Shown here one piece after another: positions 26,072 through 38,295 of a stretch of DNA of 64,000 nt. The position numbers were made by a program, and so were the translations under genes. The notes below the pieces were generated by a model. The model did not search any database and was not told the DNA's origin. It was given only the letters and a program-made list of their open reading frames with translations. The first letter of the stretch is position 1. Every line of letters starts with the position of its first letter. The stretch is from Hymenobacter pini (GTDB lineage Bacteria; Bacteroidota; Bacteroidia; Cytophagales; Hymenobacteraceae): the NCBI RefSeq assembly GCF_020421205.1, contig NZ_JAIZZH010000004.1, forward strand, positions 248,001 through 312,000, given 5' to 3'.

Positions 26072-28567
26072 ATGCTTCGATTTCTTCCAGGCACCCTGGT
26101 GCTCCTTGTTACCCTTACACTTACCTGGGTTCTGAACACCAAGCAGGGCGACGTGCCGCCCGTAGCCCGGCTGCTGAGCCCATACCGGGGCTTCTGGCAG
26201 AATGGCGAAACCCCGGCCGATTTCCCGGAGCAGCAAACCCTGCACCTTACCGGTTTGCGCCAGCCCGTGCGGGTGCGGTTTGATGACCGGCGGGTACCGC
26301 ACATCTTCGCTCTTAACGACCATGACCTGTATTATGCCCAGGGCTACCTCACGGCCCGGGACCGGCTCTGGCAGATGGAGTTTATGACCCGGGTGGCGGC
26401 CGGCCGCATTTCGGAGGTGGTGGGCCCCCGGGCCCTGGAGTACGACCGGTTTCAGCGGCGCATGGGCCTGCCGTATGGGGCGCAGAACTCGCTGCAGTCT
26501 ATGCTGAAAAACGACACCACGCGGCTGGTGCTGGAGTCGTACTCGGCGGGGGTGAATGCCTACATCAGCAGCCTTTCGCCGCGGGAATACCCGTTTGAGT
26601 ACAAGCTGCTCGAATACGCTCCCGAGCCCTGGCAGCCCCTTAAATGCGCCCTGCTGCTGAAGCTGATGGCCTGGGATTTGAGCGGCCGCTCCGACGATTT
26701 GCGCCTGAGCAACATCCTGAGCAAGTATGGACCGAAGGTGGTGAAGGACTTGTTTCCGGATTACCCCTTCCGCGAAGACCCAATTGTGCCGGTGGGTACG
26801 CCGCTGGATTTCAAGCCGCTGCCAGTGCCGGCCACACCCCCTTCGTTTACGGCGGCCTTATCGGACAAAGTGCCGCAGCGGGAGCCGGATGCCGAGCTGG
26901 GTTCCAACAACTTCGCCGTGGCGGGCAGCCGCTCGGCCTCGGGCCTGCCGCTACTGGCCAACGACCCCCACCTGCAGCTGAACCTGCCCAGCATCTGGTA
27001 CCAGGTGCAACTGCACGCGCCCGGCCAGAACGTGTACGGCGTAACCATTCCGGGCGCACCGGCCGTTATTATCGGGTTCAACGAGGACGTGGCCTGGGGC
27101 GTAACCAACGTGGGCGGCGACGTGCTGGACTGGTACCAGCTTAAATTCCGCGACAACACCAAGCGCGAGTACTGGCACGACGGCCGCTGGAAACCGGTGC
27201 GCCGGGTGGTGGAGCGCATTGTAGTGCGCGGCCTTCCCGACCGCCTCGACACAGTAATCTACACCCACCACGGCCCCGTGGTGTACGACCACGACGAGAA
27301 ACCCTTCAATGCCCAAACGCCCACCCAGCACGCCATGCGCTGGACGGCTCACGAGGGCGCCGACGAGGTGCTGGCCTTCGTGAAGCTCAACCACGCCCGT
27401 AATTATCAGGATTACGACCGGGCTTTGCGCACCTACGGCTCCCCGGCCCAGAACTTCATCTTCGCCAGCAACCAGAACGACATTGCCATCCGGCCCAACG
27501 GCCGCTACCCGCTGAAGTGGCCGGAGCAGGGCAAGTTTATTCTGGACGGCTCCGACCCGCGCCACGACTGGCAGGGCTGGATTCCGATGACGCAGACGCC
27601 GCGGGTGCAGAACCCGGCCCGGGGCTTCGTGTCGTCGGCCAACCAGCACTCCGCCGGGCCCGACTACCCCTACTACATTGGGTGGGACTATGCGCCCTGG
27701 GACCGGGGGCACCGCATCAACCAGCAGCTGGCCAAGATGCACCGCGCCACCGCCGACACCTTGCGCGAGCTGCAGAACGACAACCTCGGCATCAACGCCC
27801 AAACCATGCTCCCAGGCATGTTGAGCCTGATGCGCGGCAACAAGGTGACGGATCAGTTGTATAGCCCGGTTCCGCCTGATAAGCCAGAATATAAGGCGCT
27901 GGAGGTGTTAGGAAAATGGGATTACCACTACACTACCGATGCCGTGGCGGCCACCATCTTCGAGCTGTGGTACCAGGACTTGGTGAAGCGCCTCTGGGAG
28001 GATGATTTCAGCAAGCTGGCTACCGGCCTGGAAATGCGCTACCCCTCCCGCGACCGGACCAACCACCTGTTACAGCAGGAGTATGGCGACGCATTCCAGG
28101 GATTTAAAGGTGCCAGCCCCTGGATAGACGACCGGCGCACCCCCAAGAAGGAAAACGTGCACGACCTGCTGGCGGCTTCCTTGCATTTCGCCGTAGATTC
28201 GCTGACCCGCAAGTTCGGGCCGCTGGGGCCGAAGTGGGGCTGGGCCAACCAGAAAAGCACCGATATCAACCACCTGGCCCAGCTGCCGGGCTTCGGGCAC
28301 CAGGATATTGTGTGCGCCGGCAGCCCCGGCACCGTGAATGCCACCGGTCCGCGCAACGGCCCTTCCTGGCGCATGGTGGTAGCGCTGGGGCCGCAGGTGC
28401 AGGCCTACGGCATCTTCCCCGGCGGACAGAGCGGCAACCCGGCCTCCCGGTACTATGATGATATGCTGGAAAGCTGGCGCGTGGGCAAGCTGGATGAGCT
28501 GGTATTTCTACGCGCCGCCGACGAAAACCACCCCCGCCTGCAGGCTGCCTGGCGGCTGGAAAAGTAA
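26072..28567 (+). CDS. Penicillin-acylase-family (Ntn) amidohydrolase
   Basis: This 831-residue protein of the penicillin G acylase / AHL acylase / PvdQ group begins with one hydrophobic export segment (about 4-21). These enzymes self-cleave before a serine that becomes the catalytic N-terminus. Here it is S278 in AELGSNNFAVAG. Downstream features P-L-L-A-N-D-P-H-L, W-G-V-T-N-V-G-G-D and F-V-S-S-A-N-Q are family landmarks. The chain would split into an alpha part of about 255 residues and a beta part of about 550. Substrate (penicillin, acyl-homoserine lactone or another amide) cannot be told from sequence. It is probably periplasmic. Confidence 0.9.
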   Translation: MLRFLPGTLVLLVTLTLTWVLNTKQGDVPPVARLLSPYRGFWQNGETPADFPEQQTLHLTGLRQPVRVRFDDRRVPHIFALNDHDLYYAQGYLTARDRLWQMEFMTRVAAGRISEVVGPRALEYDRFQRRMGLPYGAQNSLQSMLKNDTTRLVLESYSAGVNAYISSLSPREYPFEYKLLEYAPEPWQPLKCALLLKLMAWDLSGRSDDLRLSNILSKYGPKVVKDLFPDYPFREDPIVPVGTPLDFKPLPVPATPPSFTAALSDKVPQREPDAELGSNNFAVAGSRSASGLPLLANDPHLQLNLPSIWYQVQLHAPGQNVYGVTIPGAPAVIIGFNEDVAWGVTNVGGDVLDWYQLKFRDNTKREYWHDGRWKPVRRVVERIVVRGLPDRLDTVIYTHHGPVVYDHDEKPFNAQTPTQHAMRWTAHEGADEVLAFVKLNHARNYQDYDRALRTYGSPAQNFIFASNQNDIAIRPNGRYPLKWPEQGKFILDGSDPRHDWQGWIPMTQTPRVQNPARGFVSSANQHSAGPDYPYYIGWDYAPWDRGHRINQQLAKMHRATADTLRELQNDNLGINAQTMLPGMLSLMRGNKVTDQLYSPVPPDKPEYKALEVLGKWDYHYTTDAVAATIFELWYQDLVKRLWEDDFSKLATGLEMRYPSRDRTNHLLQQEYGDAFQGFKGASPWIDDRRTPKKENVHDLLAASLHFAVDSLTRKFGPLGPKWGWANQKSTDINHLAQLPGFGHQDIVCAGSPGTVNATGPRNGPSWRMVVALGPQVQAYGIFPGGQSGNPASRYYDDMLESWRVGKLDELVFLRAADENHPRLQAAWRLEK

Positions 28568-28642
28568 GTGTCGGCAGTACCCGTTTCGTGCGTATCTTGC
28601 TCAACTGCCCTTATCCTGCCTTCGCCTTTATCTGTTTCAGAA

Positions 28643-30214
28643 ATGTCTTTATCGCGCAGCCGCTTCGCGTGGCATCGGGTAGTACTGGCCGCTTGCCTCA
28701 CGGGAGCAACCGTGCCGACAGTGCAGGCCCAGCAAACCACTAAAAAGCCCGTTGCCGTTGCCAAGTCAGCACCCGCTGCGCGCGTGTACAGCCTATACGA
28801 AGTCCAGACGCGGCCCGAGTACGTGGAAGGCGAGTACGCGCTCCGGCAGTACCTGCGAAACCAGCTGCGCCGGCCCGCTGCCGTGAAAGCCGGTAGGGAG
28901 CGGGGCGTGGTAACGGTGAACTTCGTAGTGCAGCCGGATGGCCGACTCACCAATGCCTTTATTGCCCGCGGCCTCAGCGTCGCCAGCAACGCCGAGGCGT
29001 TGCGCCTGGTGCAGGCCATGCCCCGCTGGCGCCCCGCCCGCTACCAGGATAAGCCCGTACCCGTGCAGTACCAAATTTCCGTACCGTTTGAGCCGCCGGT
29101 TCAAGCGGTGCCTGACTTGTCAGGCTTGCAGGGCGAGGGGAAGGTGGTGGAAGAGGTAGTGGAGAACAAGGTGTACACCTACGTGGAGCAGATGCCGGTA
29201 TTTCCGGGCGGGCAGGAGTATTTGGTGAAGTACGTGCAGGCCAGCCTACGTTACCCGGCGGCGGCCGTGGCCAACAAGGTAGAGGGCCGGGTATTTGTGC
29301 GGTTTGTGGTGCAGCCCACAGGCCAGGTAGACAACGTAGAGGTTATAAAAGGCCTGGGTGCCGGTTGCGACGAAGAGGCGGCGCGCGTCATCAAAGCTCT
29401 ACCCACCTTCGAGCCCGGCAAGCAGAACGGCCGTCTGGTTGCTGTGCAACACACGCTGCCCGTTATGTTCAGCCTGGATAGTACCCCGGGCGCCCCGGGC
29501 GTAGCCATTCCGCCCTTGCCCACGCTACCTAAGCCCGAGGATAAAGTCTACACCTATGTGGAGCAAATGCCGACGCTGGCAGGCACCACTGAAGCAACCA
29601 TTGCCTCGGCCCTACAGGCGGCCGTAGTGCTGCCCGCAGAGGTAGTGAAAGGCGACACGGAAGGCCGCGTATACCTGAGCTTCGTGGTAAATCGGGACGG
29701 CCGAACTGACGAAGCCAAGGTACTGCGGGGGCTGTGCACCGCCTGTGATGCCGCTGCCCTGGCGGCCGTAGCTAAACTACCCCGCCTGGAACCCGGCCGG
29801 CAAAACGGCAAGCCGGTGCGGGTACAGCTGACCCACACGGTACAACTGTTCGGCCCCAACCATGTATTCGAGCCCCGCGAGGCGGTGACTCAGGCCAGCT
29901 TCAACGGGGGCGGTGTAGCCCTGCGGCAGTATTTCACCGAGAAGCTAAAAGAGCCCAAAGTGCTGGCCCAAGAAAACCTACGCGGGGCCGTGGAGGTACG
30001 ATTCGTGGTGCAGGCCGACGGTAAGATTGGCGCGGCCGAAGTGGTACGCCCCTTCTGCCGCAGCTGCGACGAAGAAGCCTTACGCTTGGTGCGCGCCATG
30101 CCCACCTGGGCCCCCGCCCGCGACGCTTCCGGTCAGCCCATTGCCGTACGCCAAGCCGTGCTCATTCCCATGCCCGCCCCCGAGTTGCCCCGCAAAGTCG
30201 GCATCGACAACTAA
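28643..30214 (+). CDS. Secreted protein with four tandem TonB C-terminal domains
   Basis: This 523-residue protein has a signal peptide ending VQAQ at about residue 30 and then four copies of the TonB C-terminal domain, starting near residues 60, 175, 295 and 405. Each copy carries the F-V-V-(Q/N)-x-D-G-x strand and a (C)xxCD-(E/A)-A-x-R/L-V-x-x-(L/M)-P helix. The last three copies have a cysteine before the DEEA/DAAA segment, two of them as CxxC. There is no membrane anchor after the signal peptide, so it is not a normal ExbB/D-coupled TonB. It may bind TonB boxes or peptidoglycan in the periplasm. Confidence 0.82.
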   Translation: MSLSRSRFAWHRVVLAACLTGATVPTVQAQQTTKKPVAVAKSAPAARVYSLYEVQTRPEYVEGEYALRQYLRNQLRRPAAVKAGRERGVVTVNFVVQPDGRLTNAFIARGLSVASNAEALRLVQAMPRWRPARYQDKPVPVQYQISVPFEPPVQAVPDLSGLQGEGKVVEEVVENKVYTYVEQMPVFPGGQEYLVKYVQASLRYPAAAVANKVEGRVFVRFVVQPTGQVDNVEVIKGLGAGCDEEAARVIKALPTFEPGKQNGRLVAVQHTLPVMFSLDSTPGAPGVAIPPLPTLPKPEDKVYTYVEQMPTLAGTTEATIASALQAAVVLPAEVVKGDTEGRVYLSFVVNRDGRTDEAKVLRGLCTACDAAALAAVAKLPRLEPGRQNGKPVRVQLTHTVQLFGPNHVFEPREAVTQASFNGGGVALRQYFTEKLKEPKVLAQENLRGAVEVRFVVQADGKIGAAEVVRPFCRSCDEEALRLVRAMPTWAPARDASGQPIAVRQAVLIPMPAPELPRKVGIDN

Positions 30215-30687: not shown

Positions 30688-31971
30688 CTAATACTGAGAG
30701 ATGAACGCAAAGGCCTGCAGCGTGTAGGTGGCTACCGAGCTGAAGTGGTTGCCACCCTGGATAGGCCGGAGCGTTGCCTGCGTGGCTCCTTGGGCGCGCA
30801 TGGCGTTGTAGGCATCCTGGGAGTTGAAGTACGGCACGTAATCGTCGGCGGTACCGTGGAACAGGGCTATGGGCGCCTTGGGCTTCCAGTCGAAGATGTC
30901 GTTATCGGTAAGGGAGGCGGTGAGGGCCGCATCGGAATCGGTTAGCACAGCCTGCCGGAAAGTAGGGGCAAACAGCGCACTAGCCTGGGTGGGCACTTCA
31001 CTGAACGGATTAGCCTGCAGACGGGTGGCGTAGGGTTCTTGGTAGTAGTAGCTGTTGGGCCGGCCTAGCTTATACACGCGGTTATAGGTATCCAGCACCC
31101 ACACGTAGGTGCTCAGAAAGTTGAGCGGCTGCGTGGAATTCATAATGTACTTGGCAAACGCCGACTTATGATAGGCTCCCGCCCCCGGCGCGCTGGCCGT
31201 CACGGGCAGTTCCGCAGGGTATTTCTCCTCCAGGTACTTATGCAATGCCATCGTGGCGTAGCCGCCTTCGGAGTAGCCCAACAGGAAATTCTTCTGGTTC
31301 ACGCTGATACTCTCCTTTTTGCAGAACTCCCGGGCCGCCCGCAACATATCAGCCGAGGCCGAGGCCAACGACGACGCGTGCTCATAGGGATGCGGCAGGG
31401 CTTTACTGGCCCCATAGCCAATGTAATCGGGGGCCGACACCACGTAGCCCGTAGATGCCAGCACCGATACCGCCGACCATAACTCACTGCTCTGGCTGTA
31501 ATACGACGGCGCCCTACTCTCATCATCGGGGCGAATGGTGCCGTGCTGATAGCTGATAACCGGCAGGGCTGTGGTGCTTACCGGCACTAGCAGCGCCCCG
31601 GAGGCCGTTACTGTTTGGCCATCGGTGTTGCGGGTAGTGTAGGTGAGGCGGTACACTTTCACGGAGTAGCGCGCCAGAGAACCTACCAGCGGAACATCCT
31701 GCACCCGCGCCGCCAACTGGGCCGGCGTGTATTCGCCCAGCAGGGTGCTGCCCGTGAGTATCGTGGCCGGCACGGTCTTGTCGGGCGTGGTAACCGGTGC
31801 GGGGTCGGAGGAGGCGGAGCTCTGGCAGCCAGCCCCCAGTAGTACAGTCGTTATCAGGCCTAGCAGGCCTAGTTTGGGCGTGGGCGCCAGGCGGCGCAAC
31901 CGGGAAGGTAGTAGCACAAGCAGTTGATTAGCTGAATCCTGAATCTGCCTGTACAACAGGTCAAGCCGCAT
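30688..31971 (-). CDS. Alpha/beta-hydrolase lipoprotein (secretory lipase / S9-like)
   Basis: This 427-residue alpha/beta hydrolase has a nucleophile elbow GYSEGG near residue 235, an acid in GTADDYVPY near 370 and a catalytic histidine in QGGNHFSS near 410. The Q-H-G-T stretch at about 142 would form the oxyanion hole. A lipobox (VLLGAGC) puts the anchored cysteine at about residue 48. The leader of 47 residues is long, so a later start may be used. An internal hydrophobic run begins near residue 33. Related proteins include secreted lipases and esterases. It diverges from the BlaI-like regulator. Confidence 0.82.
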   Translation of the reverse strand: MRLDLLYRQIQDSANQLLVLLPSRLRRLAPTPKLGLLGLITTVLLGAGCQSSASSDPAPVTTPDKTVPATILTGSTLLGEYTPAQLAARVQDVPLVGSLARYSVKVYRLTYTTRNTDGQTVTASGALLVPVSTTALPVISYQHGTIRPDDESRAPSYYSQSSELWSAVSVLASTGYVVSAPDYIGYGASKALPHPYEHASSLASASADMLRAAREFCKKESISVNQKNFLLGYSEGGYATMALHKYLEEKYPAELPVTASAPGAGAYHKSAFAKYIMNSTQPLNFLSTYVWVLDTYNRVYKLGRPNSYYYQEPYATRLQANPFSEVPTQASALFAPTFRQAVLTDSDAALTASLTDNDIFDWKPKAPIALFHGTADDYVPYFNSQDAYNAMRAQGATQATLRPIQGGNHFSSVATYTLQAFAFISQY

Positions 31972-32026: not shown

Positions 32027-32060
32027 ATTAGTTGATTGACTAATAAATTAGTTATACTTG
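32027..32060 (+). promoter_or_regulatory. Operator/promoter of the BlaI-BlaR-like pair
   Basis: Three half-sites lie within 26 bases: ATTAGT at 32027-32032, its inverse ACTAAT at 32039-32044, and ATTAGT again at 32047-32052. The first and third are part of a nine-base direct repeat (AAATTAGTT) exactly 20 bases apart, about two helical turns. They overlap a promoter TTG(32032-32034)-N18-TATACTTG(32053-32060), so a bound repressor would block it. The hydrolase gene reads away in the other direction and could share control. Confidence 0.6.
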
Positions 32061-32083
32061 TTTACGACTTCACCCAAATAGCA

Positions 32084-32506
32084 ATGGCCGACAACAATTT
32101 TCCGGAGCTGACCCGGGCCGAGGAACAGGTTATGCAGGTATTATGGCAACGCGGACCTTCGTTTGTGAAGGACGTGGTGCCGGAGCTACCGCCACCTGCC
32201 CCCGCTACCACCACGGTATCTACCATTATCCGCATCCTGGAGCAGAAGGGATTTGTGGGGCACGAAGCTTTTGGGCGCACCCATCGCTACCACGCTCTGG
32301 TGGCCCAGGATGAGTACCGGCGCTTCTCGTTGCGCAAGCTGCTGGGTGGCTACTTCGGGGGCTCGTTCACTCGCCTAGTTTCCTTTTTCGCGCAGGAAGA
32401 AAACCTGAATGCGGCCCAGCTTGACGAGCTGATGCGCCACGCCCAGGCCTCCACCCCTACCCCACCCGCCGATGAGCCCGACCCTACTACCGAGCACTAC
32501 GCCTGA
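32084..32506 (+). CDS. BlaI/MecI/CopY-family transcriptional repressor
   Basis: This 140-residue winged-helix repressor has the BlaI pattern: L-T-R-A-E-E-Q-V-M-Q-V-L-W at the start, the recognition-helix region T-V-S-T-I-I-R-I-L-E-Q-K-G-F at about 42-57 and G-R-T-H-R-Y-H in the wing, followed by a dimerisation helix region. The ATG at 32084 gives family-standard length. One at 32036 would lie inside the promoter. It overlaps the next gene by 35 bases. Family members are inactivated when the partner sensor protease is triggered. The dyad sites upstream are its likely operator. Confidence 0.9.
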   Translation: MADNNFPELTRAEEQVMQVLWQRGPSFVKDVVPELPPPAPATTTVSTIIRILEQKGFVGHEAFGRTHRYHALVAQDEYRRFSLRKLLGGYFGGSFTRLVSFFAQEENLNAAQLDELMRHAQASTPTPPADEPDPTTEHYA

Positions 32507-33803
32507 GTTGCTGGGCTGGATGCTCCAAAGCGCCCTCTGCCTGGGAGCCTGTTGGCTCCTGTACCGGTGTGCGCTACAACAGGAGCAGTTTTTCCACTAC
32601 AACCGTCGCTTCCTGCAGTTCACACCCTGGCTGGCGCTGCTGCTGCCACGGCTAGTAAGCGCGGGTTTAGAATACTGGCCCACCGAGCCCTCTTCGGGTG
32701 AAGCCGGGGCGGTATCGAGCGGCGGACTGCTACCCGGCCCCACGGTGCAGGCGGTGGGCAGTGTCCTGTACAGTCTGCCCCAGTGGCTGCCGCTGCTGTA
32801 CCTGGGCGGCGTGCTGCTGATGCTGGCGCTGCTGGCCAGCCGGGTGCTGCGCCTGTGGCTGCGCACCCGGCACCTGCCGCGGGAAATTCGCAACGGCTAC
32901 GTGCTAGTGCGCACCGGCGGGCAGTTGCCCACCAGCTCCTTCGGGCGCTGGATTCTCTGGGATGAAACCATACCTCTCACCCCGGCCGAGGCCCAGGCCG
33001 TGCTGGCCCACGAAATAGCCCACGTGCAGCAGGGCCACACCGCCGAGAAACTACGCCTGGAGCTGGTGCGGGCGCTGCTGTGGCCGGTGCCATTTGTGCA
33101 CCTGTTTCCGCGGGCCCTGGCGCAAGTGCAGGAGTTTATGGCCGACTCGGCGGCGTTACGGCTGGCTTCGCCGGTTACGGCCTCGCCTACGGCGTATGCC
33201 AGTCTGCTGGCCCGCCTGGCCCTGCGTTCCTACCAACCCGATTTACCGCTTACTCAATCTTTCACCCAATCTCTCACCCTTACCCGTATCCGTATGCTTA
33301 CTCAATCCTCCACCGCCCGCCGCTGGAAACAGTGGCTGCTCCTGCCCCTGGGCACGGCCCTACTGGCCGGGGTGGCCGCCTGCGAACAAGCCGGCGAGTT
33401 GCCTCCCCCCCCGCCGACCACCGTGGCCGAGGCTGCCTTGGCTCCGCCTCCCCCGCCCCCACCGGCTCTCTACGAAGGCGATGCGCAAACGCCTCCCGGC
33501 TACCCCGGCGGCATGACCCAACTATTGGCCGATGTGATGAAGCGGGTAAAATACCCCGCCGCCGCTAAGCAGGCCAAAGTAGCCGGGGCCGTTTTCGTGC
33601 GGTTTGTCGTGAATGACAAAGGGCTCATTCAGGATGCGGAAGTAATGAAAGCCCCCAGCGGGCCCGAAGCCGCCGTGGAGGCCTTGAAATCAGAAGCTCT
33701 GATGGCCGTGAAAACGCTGCCCGGCCGCTGGACTCCGTGCCAGCGCGACGGTAAGGCCGTAGCCGCTCGCTACACTATTCCTATCACTTTCGCGCTGAAA
33801 TAA
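32472..33803 (+). CDS. BlaR1/MecR1-type M56 metallopeptidase fused to a TonB C-terminal domain
   Basis: This 443-residue membrane protein has about four membrane segments (about 12-30, 45-62, 95-130, 293-312). The zinc protease site H180-E-I-A-H184 with downstream E221-F-M-A-D is the M56 signature. After the last membrane segment comes a proline-rich linker (repeated P runs at about 315-340) and a TonB C-terminal domain (about 355-443, P-G-G-M-T-Q-L and F-V-R-F-V-V-N-D-K-G). Unlike BlaR1 it has no penicillin-binding sensor domain, so the signal is something else, perhaps read through the periplasmic TonB domain. It is translationally coupled to the BlaI gene. Confidence 0.9.
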   Translation: MSPTLLPSTTPELLGWMLQSALCLGACWLLYRCALQQEQFFHYNRRFLQFTPWLALLLPRLVSAGLEYWPTEPSSGEAGAVSSGGLLPGPTVQAVGSVLYSLPQWLPLLYLGGVLLMLALLASRVLRLWLRTRHLPREIRNGYVLVRTGGQLPTSSFGRWILWDETIPLTPAEAQAVLAHEIAHVQQGHTAEKLRLELVRALLWPVPFVHLFPRALAQVQEFMADSAALRLASPVTASPTAYASLLARLALRSYQPDLPLTQSFTQSLTLTRIRMLTQSSTARRWKQWLLLPLGTALLAGVAACEQAGELPPPPPTTVAEAALAPPPPPPPALYEGDAQTPPGYPGGMTQLLADVMKRVKYPAAAKQAKVAGAVFVRFVVNDKGLIQDAEVMKAPSGPEAAVEALKSEALMAVKTLPGRWTPCQRDGKAVAARYTIPITFALK

Positions 33804-33949: not shown

Positions 33950-34963
33950 ATGAGTGACGTAATGCAGCAGATAGTACCAATATCTTCCGTGAAGTGGCTG
34001 GGCCCGCTTGGGGTCAGCCTGAGTATGCTGGCGAGTTGGGCCCTGACTGGGTGCGACGCCACTCCCGGCAAAGCTCCCAGCAAACCCCTGACGGCCGCCG
34101 AACAACTCCGCCGCAAGCGGTTGCTAGTGCACCGCGACTCTCTGCGGGCCGACAGTATCGCGCAGGCCGGGGGGCAACTCCCGGGTGCCGTACTGCCCGA
34201 TAACCGCATTGTGGCCTTCTACGGCAACCCACTGCACAAGAGCATGGGTATTCTGGGCCAGTACCCCAAAGATGAGATGCTGCGCCGCCTGCGGGTGCAA
34301 ACAACCGAGTGGCAGCAGGCCGATAGCCTGCCCGTGCTGCCCGCCCTGCACATGACGGCCGTTATTGCCCAGCGAGATTCCGGGGCCGACGGTAAATACC
34401 GTCTGCCCTTGCCCGACAGTACCATCCGGCGCGTAATTCGCTGGGGGCAGGAGCACAAGACGCTAGTGTTTCTGGATGTGCAGGTGGGACTGTCTGATTT
34501 GCAGCACGAACTGCCCCCGCTGGCCCGCTACCTGCGCCTGCCCTTTGTGCACTTGGGCATTGATCCGGAGTTTTCCATGAAATCGGGCCGGCGGCCGGGC
34601 ACGGAGGTGGGCGAGTTTGATGCCGCCGACATCAACTACGCCCGCCGCTTTCTGGCCCGGCTGGTGAGTGAAAACCAGCTGCCGCCCAAGGTGCTGGTGG
34701 TGCACCGCTTCCGGCAGGATATGGTCACGAACTACCAGAACATTGAGTTGGACCCCCGCGTGCAGATTGTAATGCACATGGACGGTTGGGGCACGCCCAG
34801 CATCAAGCGCAGCTCCTACCGCAAGTTTATCAAGAAGGAGCCCGTGGAGTACGCCGGTTTCAAACTGTTCTTCCGCAACGACCAGCGCCCCGGCTCCCGG
34901 CTCATGAAGCCCCGTGAGGTGGTCAGTCTCTCACCCACGCCATTGTACGTGCAGTACCAGTGA
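33950..34963 (+). CDS. Lipoprotein, first of two tandem paralogues, probable TIM-barrel
   Basis: This 337-residue protein has a signal peptide and lipobox (SWALTGC, cysteine near residue 35). I do not know a named family. Eight evenly spaced strand-like segments suggest a beta/alpha barrel: R-I-V-A-F-Y-G-N, A-L-H-M-T-A-V, T-L-V-F-L-D-V-Q, V-H-L-G-I-D-P-E-F, V-L-V-V-H-R-F, Q-I-V-M-H-M-D-G, F-K-L-F-F and P-L-Y-V-Q-Y-Q. Acidic and histidine residues sit at the strand ends, as in TIM-barrel hydrolases. Start choice is between ATG 33950 and 33962. The paralogue follows after 143 bases. Confidence 0.7.
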   Translation: MSDVMQQIVPISSVKWLGPLGVSLSMLASWALTGCDATPGKAPSKPLTAAEQLRRKRLLVHRDSLRADSIAQAGGQLPGAVLPDNRIVAFYGNPLHKSMGILGQYPKDEMLRRLRVQTTEWQQADSLPVLPALHMTAVIAQRDSGADGKYRLPLPDSTIRRVIRWGQEHKTLVFLDVQVGLSDLQHELPPLARYLRLPFVHLGIDPEFSMKSGRRPGTEVGEFDAADINYARRFLARLVSENQLPPKVLVVHRFRQDMVTNYQNIELDPRVQIVMHMDGWGTPSIKRSSYRKFIKKEPVEYAGFKLFFRNDQRPGSRLMKPREVVSLSPTPLYVQYQ

Positions 34964-35026
34964 GGGCTTAAACCGATGAGTGCCGGCAGTTGCGCTGGCT
35001 AGCACTAAAGCTCGACTGTAGCTTAC

Positions 35027-35050
35027 AATTTCGCTAATTCACTATTTCAC
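35027..35050 (-). repeat. Octamer repeat GTGAAATA-GTGAATTA-GCGAAATT
   Basis: Three imperfect eight-base units on the minus strand, of the same GTGAATGA type that recurs around the efflux operon (37845-37876, 38288-38339, 39947-39978). It lies between the tandem lipoprotein genes. Confidence 0.55.
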
Positions 35051-35106
35051 CTCTGGGAAACCCGTAACTTCGCTGCGTTTCCCCGACTTCAATTCATTTC
35101 CACTCA

Positions 35107-36144
35107 GTGTCTTATTTCCGGACCCTTACCCGCCTGACGGCCCCCGCGCTGGCCTCCCTGGGCCTCGCCTTTACCCTCACTACCCTGCCCGGCTGCGGCT
35201 CCCGTTCCGGCACCGATTCGGAAAACCCCACGGCTGTGGCTGATACCACCAAGCCTGCTGTGGTTGACACGCTGAAGCTGAAAATGGAAGCCATGCGCCG
35301 CGACTCGCTCAAGGCCGACTCCATTGCTCGCAAAAATGGGCAACTGCCGGGCGCCATCCTGCCGGGCCACCGCATTGTGGCGTTCTATGGCAACATCCGC
35401 TCGAAGGGCATGGGTATTCTGGGCCGGGAACCGAAGGAGCAGATGTTCCGCAAGTTTGCTGGCGTATTGAAGGAATGGCAAGCTGCCGACCCCTCTATTC
35501 CGGTGCAGGCCGCGCTGCACAACGTGACCATCACGGCCCAGGGCACCCCTGGCAAGGACGGTAAGTGGCGCCTGATGAACTCCAAAGCCACCATCGAAGA
35601 GGTTATTTCGTGGGCCCGGGAGCACAATTGCATTTTGTTTCTGGATGTGCAGCCCGGCCACAGCACCCTGCAAGTGGAGGTGCCCAAGCTGGAGCAGTAC
35701 CTGAAGCAGCCCGATATTCACCTGGGCATTGACCCCGAATTCTCGCTGGCTACCATGCCCGGCGTTCGGCCCAACCAGCGCATCGGTACCCTCGATGCCA
35801 AGGATGTGAACTGGACCATCAATTACCTGTCGCGCCTGGTGAGTGAAAACAAGCTTCCGCCTAAAGTGCTGACGGTACACCGCTTCACGCGGAAGATGAT
35901 TACCAACTACAAAAACATCAAGCTCGACCCCCGCGTGCAAGTGGTCATGCACATGGACGGTCACGGCAACCCCGTCCTGAAAAAGGACTCGTACCGTGAC
36001 TACATCCAGGCTGAGCCGGTGCAGTACACGGGCTTCAAGCTGTTCTACGAGTACGATGGCCGTCCCGCTCCCCACCACATCATGACACCCAAGGAGGTTC
36101 TAACGGAGCTGACACCCAAGCCGCTGTACATTCAGTACCAGTAG
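35107..36144 (+). CDS. Lipoprotein, second of two tandem paralogues, probable TIM-barrel
   Basis: This 345-residue protein starts at GTG and has lipobox TTLPGC (cysteine near residue 30) followed by a spacer of about 35 polar residues. From N-G-Q-L-P-G-A-I-L-P onward it aligns end to end with the previous protein. It keeps A-F-Y-G-N, M-G-I-L-G, F-L-D-V-Q-x-G, G-I-D-P-E-F-S, L-V-S-E-N-x-L-P-P-K-V-L, V-H-R-F, D-P-R-V-Q and M-H-M-D-G. Invariant D, D/E, H and D at successive strand ends are candidate catalytic residues. A strong terminator follows. Function unknown; a surface glycoside- or ester-hydrolase-like role is a guess. Confidence 0.75.
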   Translation: MSYFRTLTRLTAPALASLGLAFTLTTLPGCGSRSGTDSENPTAVADTTKPAVVDTLKLKMEAMRRDSLKADSIARKNGQLPGAILPGHRIVAFYGNIRSKGMGILGREPKEQMFRKFAGVLKEWQAADPSIPVQAALHNVTITAQGTPGKDGKWRLMNSKATIEEVISWAREHNCILFLDVQPGHSTLQVEVPKLEQYLKQPDIHLGIDPEFSLATMPGVRPNQRIGTLDAKDVNWTINYLSRLVSENKLPPKVLTVHRFTRKMITNYKNIKLDPRVQVVMHMDGHGNPVLKKDSYRDYIQAEPVQYTGFKLFYEYDGRPAPHHIMTPKEVLTELTPKPLYIQYQ

Positions 36145-36197: not shown

Positions 36198-36242
36198 CAA
36201 TAAAAAAGCCCCGACCGGAATCCGGTTGGGGCTTTTTTATTG
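36198..36242. terminator. Bidirectional terminator
   Basis: A long stem in which CAATAAAAAAGCCCC pairs with GGGGCTTTTTTATTG, extended inward by ACCGG/CCGGT with one bulge. It lies between the converging lipoprotein and efflux permease genes. Confidence 0.92.
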
Positions 36243-37911: not shown

Positions 37912-38295
37912 ATGGACAATGTGAGTAAAGCCGATTTTAACCAGGAATTTCGTTCCCGTACTAAAGCCGCTTCATTGCGAATTATCCGGTTGTATCAGCA
38001 ACTACCTCATACAGGCGAGTCCCAGGTAATTGGCAAGCAATTGCTACGCTCTGCCACATCTGTGGCCGCAAATTATCGGGCTGCTTGTCGAGGGCGTTCA
38101 GGTGCCGAATGGTATGCCAAAGTTTCCATCTGCGTTGAAGAAGCCGATGAAACACAGTTTTGGCTGGAGCTGCTCGGCGACGCTGGAATTATTTCCAAGA
38201 CCCGCTTAAAAAGTCTGGAAGGAGAGTATCTTCAGATTGTTTCTGTGCTAGCCACAGCTCGGAAATCGTATGACCGGCGTAAGAATGGCGAATGA
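37912..38295 (+). CDS. Four-helix-bundle protein (TIGR02436 / S23-IVS-like)
   Basis: This 127-residue small helical protein resembles those encoded in 23S rRNA intervening sequences and scattered in Bacteroidota genomes. Recognisable segments are F-R-S-R-T-K-A-A-S-L-R-I-I, K-Q-L-L-R-S-A-T-S-V-A-A-N-Y-R-A-A, R-G-R-S-G-A-E-W-Y-A-K and E-E-A-D-E-T-Q-F-W-L-E-L-L. Function is unknown. It reads against the efflux operon, between adaptor and permease, and is bounded on both sides by octamer repeats. Its TGA stop is part of a GCGAATGA unit. This looks like an insertion into the operon. Confidence 0.88.
   Translation: MDNVSKADFNQEFRSRTKAASLRIIRLYQQLPHTGESQVIGKQLLRSATSVAANYRAACRGRSGAEWYAKVSICVEEADETQFWLELLGDAGIISKTRLKSLEGEYLQIVSVLATARKSYDRRKNGE

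Follow-up and report, generated by a model that had tools for sequence, protein, structure and literature searches.

A family of predicted lipid-anchored TIM-barrel proteins in Hymenobacter pini and its relatives, linked in some lineages to a polysaccharide deacetylase

A tandem pair of lipoprotein genes

The window, a stretch of 64,000 nucleotides from Hymenobacter pini, contains two tandem genes whose products, P0001 and P0002, are paralogues (Table 1). The proteins are 51% identical over 334 aa (BLASTP, E 2e-117) and 57% identical in their core, and they are the only copies of the family in the 5.1 Mb genome. Both carry a signal sequence and a lipobox-like cysteine (LTGC in P0001, LPGC in P0002), which by pattern match marks them as lipoproteins. 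After the linker, both have about 265 conserved residues that run to the stop codon (YVQYQ or YIQYQ). The gap between the genes possibly holds a separate promoter for P0002. Between P0002 and a convergent MFS gene lies a GC-rich palindrome with flanking A/T runs, which probably acts as a two-way terminator; it was read from the sequence by us, and a simple terminator scan made no call there. In scans for promoters and terminators, hits were no more frequent than in shuffled sequence.

Directly upstream of the pair (32036-33803), a gene for a BlaI/MecI-type repressor overlaps one for a BlaR1-like M56/M48 peptidase with a TonB C-terminal domain at its end, and in some other Hymenobacter the family gene likewise follows related genes. 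Elsewhere in the window, a protein of 548 aa in which the TonB C-terminal domain is repeated four times (28568-30214) adjoins a penicillin amidase (26072-28567). A 127-aa protein (37912-38295) has, by eye, the look of a four-helix bundle, and we take it to resemble the type often annotated as 23S rRNA intervening-sequence protein.

Table 1. Features of the tandem pair; protein residues are numbered as in the P0002 model.
Feature	Position in window	DNA strand	Details
Paralogue 1 (P0001)	33950-34963	+	337 aa, ATG start; lipoprotein (lipobox LTGC), linker, predicted TIM-barrel domain from about residue 77 to the C-terminus
Gap between paralogues	34964-35106	none	143 bp
Paralogue 2 (P0002)	35107-36144	+	345 aa, GTG start; lipoprotein (LPGC), linker of about 50 aa, predicted TIM-barrel domain
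Strand 1, RIVAFYGN	35371-35394	+	residues 27-34; R27, Y32, G33 invariant
Strand 3 and C-end, LFLDVQPG	35632-35658	+	D118, Q120 invariant
Strand 4 and C-end, HLGIDPEF	35716-35742	+	D147, E149 invariant; proposed catalytic acids
Strand 5 and C-end, VLTVHRF	35863-35886	+	H196, F198 invariant
Strand 6 and C-end, VVMHMDGHG	35935-35967	+	D222, G223, G225 invariant
Strand 7, GFKLFYE region	36025-36045	+	K249, F251 invariant
Strand 8, YIQYQ, extreme C-terminus	36124-36141	+	Q283, the last residue, invariant
GC-rich palindrome with flanking A/T runs	36200-36240	none	between P0002 and convergent MFS gene; probable two-way terminator

Predicted fold and invariant residues

AlphaFold2 models of the two paralogues, built from input alignments of the window and mostly Hymenobacter sequences, have pLDDT values of 88.2 and 88.3 and a pTM of 0.88. 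Both proteins are modelled as a (beta/alpha)8 barrel of eight alternating strands and helices. In P0002 the strands span residues 27-34, 71-82, 114-119, 142-146, 191-195, 215-222, 245-250 and 279-282, with helices between them. An earlier note on this DNA had described two lipoproteins that share five motifs (AFYGN, FLDVQ, GIDPEF, VHRF and MHMDG) and had proposed an eight-stranded TIM barrel. The genes lie where it had placed them, all five motifs are present in both P0001 and P0002, and the models agree with the proposed fold.

Conservation was assessed in 116 family members of less than 88% identity, in which 24 residues are strictly invariant, far beyond chance: R27, Y32, G33, G41, L43, G44, A82, D118, Q120, D147, E149, G165, L179, K191, H196, F198, D222, G223, G225, K230, K249, F251, P275 and Q283. 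Nine of the 12 invariant polar residues fall within -2 to +3 of the C-terminal end of a strand, a zone that takes up 48 of 265 positions (18% expected; p 1.5e-5), and two of the 12 lie near strand N-ends. The cluster comprises D118 and Q120, D147 and E149, H196, D222, K249 and Q283, together with Y32; the invariant D, D/E, H and D that had been predicted at strand ends thus sit at the C-ends of strands 3, 4, 5 and 6. Judged from the secondary structure of the models, such a cluster points to an active site at the mouth of the barrel. On strand 2, H76 is replaced by Glu in Pantoea and actinobacterial-type members. Since all the invariant active-site residues are present in each paralogue, P0001 and P0002 are probably both active.

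Distribution, history and a linked deacetylase

Pfam and NCBIfam returned no meaningful score for P0001, P0002 or 26 diverse members (best E 0.02-0.2, to unrelated families). PDB sequences gave no match to single-sequence or profile queries, and a PHROGs search gave nothing credible. No paper on the family was found in the open-access literature, subscription papers lying outside the search. The earlier note's inability to name a family is therefore borne out: the family is undescribed in the sources searched, and it is real and well conserved. Full-length matches in Bacteroidota have E <1e-110, and down to the threshold nothing else appears except gene fragments; given this empty range of E-values, the family is sharply bounded. 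A lipobox-like cysteine follows a hydrophobic stretch in 185 of 224 members, by pattern match only.

Members were found in 148 of 150 genomes from the bacterial family to which Hymenobacter pini belongs, in 31/194 genomes sampled across the order, in 9/198 across the class and in 15/247 across the phylum Bacteroidota, in which the distribution is patchy. The genus of G571 has them in 40 of 200 genomes, and the family of G623 in 73 of 197; these samples overlap, and the counts are not additive. In a named genome collection, loci at 67-95% identity were nearly all from Hymenobacter. Altogether the family is seen in at least four phyla, and singly in records of Gemmatimonadota, Pantoea and Actinomycetota. 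Gemmatirosa (50% identity), Pantoea stewartii (43%) and Cnuibacter (32%) each have a single member, on a plasmid record. The Pantoea stewartii copy lies on a conjugative plasmid (L151:1-9484) flanked by IS66 and IS630, a setting that suggests horizontal movement. The Cnuibacter member (L152:5158-6807) is a protein of 549 aa whose N-terminal region, unrecognised by Pfam, resembles cell-wall-binding repeat 2, and the member in record L154 has an N-terminal region of similar appearance. An unverified phage record holds one member (29% identity) that groups with the Cnuibacter copy, and on a viral contig (L155:1-5236) a member sits at the edge of filamentous-phage-like genes (a replication initiator and a minor coat-like protein), where it is probably the host flank of an integrated phage. 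These two records raised the question of a viral origin of the family, which we reject, as both are probably host DNA.

The two paralogues differ in how widely they are kept. The second is near universal in the genus and kept in nearly all relatives, and the first occurs in a minority of genomes, roughly a third. In the tree the first-paralogue and second-paralogue clades are separate and each well supported, and the clade that holds both also includes members of another family of the order. Given separate clades within a mixed-family clade, either the duplication is older than much of Hymenobacter or one of the copies was acquired; the order of branching is not firm (95/39).

More interesting than the tandem pair alone is a gene found beside the barrel gene in relatives. 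A polysaccharide deacetylase gene on the same strand (PF01522, Polysacc_deac_1, E 2.8e-23) adjoins the barrel gene in 24 of 101 loci; it starts 11-29 bp downstream in 20 of them and 131 bp downstream in one, and lies upstream in three. The deacetylase often has a lipobox and keeps the NodB-enzyme motifs TFDD and H-T-W-D-H. In the genus of G571, a deacetylase orthologue (E <1e-50) was found in 33 of 200 genomes; all 33 are among the 40 that carry the barrel gene, and none is among the 160 that lack it (Fisher 3e-31, a value that ignores shared ancestry). The two genes lie side by side in nearly all of these genomes, with one pair split between contigs. The linked unit occurs in Flavobacterium-like genomes, in some of a second family and in one lineage outside the class. 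Most deacetylase-linked members form a single clade in the tree, and because those of L168/L192, L261 and L263 fall in other parts of it, with the two genes in the opposite order, the link has been kept or formed more than once.

At the window locus no deacetylase lies next to the barrel gene, nor does one in any other Hymenobacter or Hymenobacteraceae examined. The neighbours in Hymenobacteraceae vary, without a clear functional link; in Hymenobacter the gene is preceded by the BlaI/M56 pair and followed by an MFS-HlyD efflux unit. In one relative (L179:3154-5148), a GH20 hexosaminidase gene follows a family member by 143 bp on the same strand.

Comparison with known enzymes and a proposed function

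Neither sequence and profile comparison nor fold search gave a clear match between the barrel and a known glycoside-hydrolase family or clan. The earlier note had looked to a match with a glycoside-hydrolase clan for support; the Foldseek hits obtained reach a TM of at most 0.52 and are spread over many barrel families. In the PDB, the first model matched an engineered GH101 core, KDO8P synthases, a GH5 endoglucanase and human OGA (GH84) at TM 0.3-0.45, and the second matched KDO8P synthase, TglHI, GH18 chitinases and a Bacillus endoglucanase at TM up to 0.52. With clear superposition on a family member taken as TM > about 0.5, the values for GH84 (0.39-0.45), GH18 (0.31-0.43) and GH5 (≤0.52) are at the level of generic barrels, and viral structures gave the same weak, generic matches. 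KDO8P synthase, the top fold match, was likewise set aside as generic (TM 0.3-0.4, about 10% identity).

Several known families nevertheless share features with this one. GH84 and GH18 structures are among its weak fold matches, and GH84 is itself present in 1 of 61 genomes. The D-x-E-[FWY] after strand 4 and the M-x-x-D at strand 6 recall GH18, and hhalign sets the strand 4 D-x-E on that of GH18, in register. S-x-G-G at strand 3 is typical of GH18, whereas this family has D-x-Q-x-G. Membership of GH18 was rejected (hhalign 0.2%), only D-x-E-[FWY] being present and not the full D-x-x-D-x-D-x-E.

The closest parallel in organisation is PgaB, in which a deacetylase is fused to a (beta/alpha)8 GH153 hydrolase with D474 as the probable catalytic acid in the barrel (PMC5933820). 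GH153 cuts partly deacetylated PNAG, and to act on polymer made in situ it depends on an active deacetylase domain (PMC5933820). Like the C-terminal domain of PgaB, the family combines a predicted (beta/alpha)8 barrel, an envelope location and an acid at a barrel strand end with coupling to a NodB-type deacetylase, which is an adjacent gene in relatives and a fusion in PgaB. The linked deacetylase matches the deacetylase domain at the N-terminus of E. coli PgaB (hhalign 99.1%, E 4.9e-19), although most NodB-fold enzymes would do so. The family's motif set differs from that of GH153, and no pga synthase or export genes were seen nearby. We do not assign the family to GH153 (hhalign with residues 301-672 of E. 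coli K-12 PgaB, 0.2%, a weak test against a single-sequence target). The barrel is also distinct from the CE4/NodB deacetylases (PF01522) whose gene adjoins it in many Bacteroidota: these are separate proteins, and hhalign between them and the barrel family is null (0.7%).

Since the PgaB logic of a deacetylase plus a barrel here appears to be divided between two proteins, we propose that the family consists of lipid-anchored barrel enzymes which cleave or trim an amino-sugar polysaccharide of the envelope, like a split PgaB, a reading we consider somewhat probable. The barrel would bind a sugar polymer across its mouth and cleave or trim it by acid-base catalysis, with the strand 4 D-x-E pair (D147/E149) and D118 or D222 as candidate catalytic acids. 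In the two-gene unit, the PgaB-like deacetylase, often itself a lipoprotein, would deacetylate and the barrel protein would cut; where the genes are linked, the likely substrate would be a partly deacetylated N-acetylhexosamine polymer, either an exopolysaccharide or peptidoglycan. Hymenobacter itself retains the barrel, often with a second copy, without the linked deacetylase. Of the earlier suggestion of surface hydrolases of a polysaccharide or polyester, the polysaccharide half thus gains independent support from the linked deacetylase, and no evidence supports the polyester half.

The chief alternative among substrates, and a sub-case of the proposed function, is peptidoglycan, though we think it unlikely; the barrel would then be a wall glycosidase or lytic enzyme that works together with a peptidoglycan deacetylase. 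CE4 deacetylases include peptidoglycan deacetylases (PMC5855634), and the CWB2-like N-terminal region of some actinobacterial members recalls the peptidoglycan hydrolase Cwp19, which has CWB2 domains and a GHL10 TIM barrel that also lies at the cell surface (PMC5765458). However, this resemblance to CWB2 was seen by eye and has no match in Pfam, and the Bacteroidota loci have no conserved cell-wall gene neighbours. The family differs from GHL10 in that none of 26 members matches any Pfam GHL family.

Less probable again is that the barrel binds a polysaccharide or handles its export, with weak or no catalysis. The C-terminal domain of PgaB was first regarded as PNAG-binding and critical for export, and only later shown to be a hydrolase (PMC5933820), and a lipid anchor and deacetylase linkage suit binding as well as cleavage, so that such roles fit the same facts as the proposed hydrolase. 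That nine polar residues at the mouth, including four acids, a His and a Lys, are invariant in at least four phyla speaks more for catalysis than for binding alone. A TIM-barrel enzyme with a non-sugar substrate (a lyase, phosphodiesterase or metal-dependent isomerase-like enzyme, or one acting on polyester) seems similarly improbable: the fold matches include KDO8P synthase, isocitrate lyase, glycerophosphodiesterase and TglHI, the H-or-E swap on strand 2 and the set of E, H and D could bind metal, and a secretory lipase is encoded nearby (30688-31971), but these matches have TM near 0.4 and rmsd of 6-11 A, as any barrel gives, the lipase was seen as a neighbour in Hymenobacter only, and the sole neighbour linked across lineages is a carbohydrate enzyme.

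The proposed envelope polysaccharide hydrolase could, more tentatively, represent a new glycoside-hydrolase family or clan with a site made up of D-x-Q, D-x-E, H, D, K and Q, which together with the deacetylase would be a PgaB-like module split over two proteins, widespread and serving an envelope polysaccharide of Bacteroidota that has so far gone unrecognised; we hold this stronger claim to be possible rather than probable. What had been a pair of hypothetical proteins becomes a defined family of predicted envelope TIM-barrel proteins, with a specific partner open to testing and named residues as targets for mutation. Should its members prove to be glycosidases, Flavobacterium and Hymenobacter would be expected to have a matrix or wall polysaccharide that has not been studied, and the family would add a possible class of biofilm-degrading enzymes.
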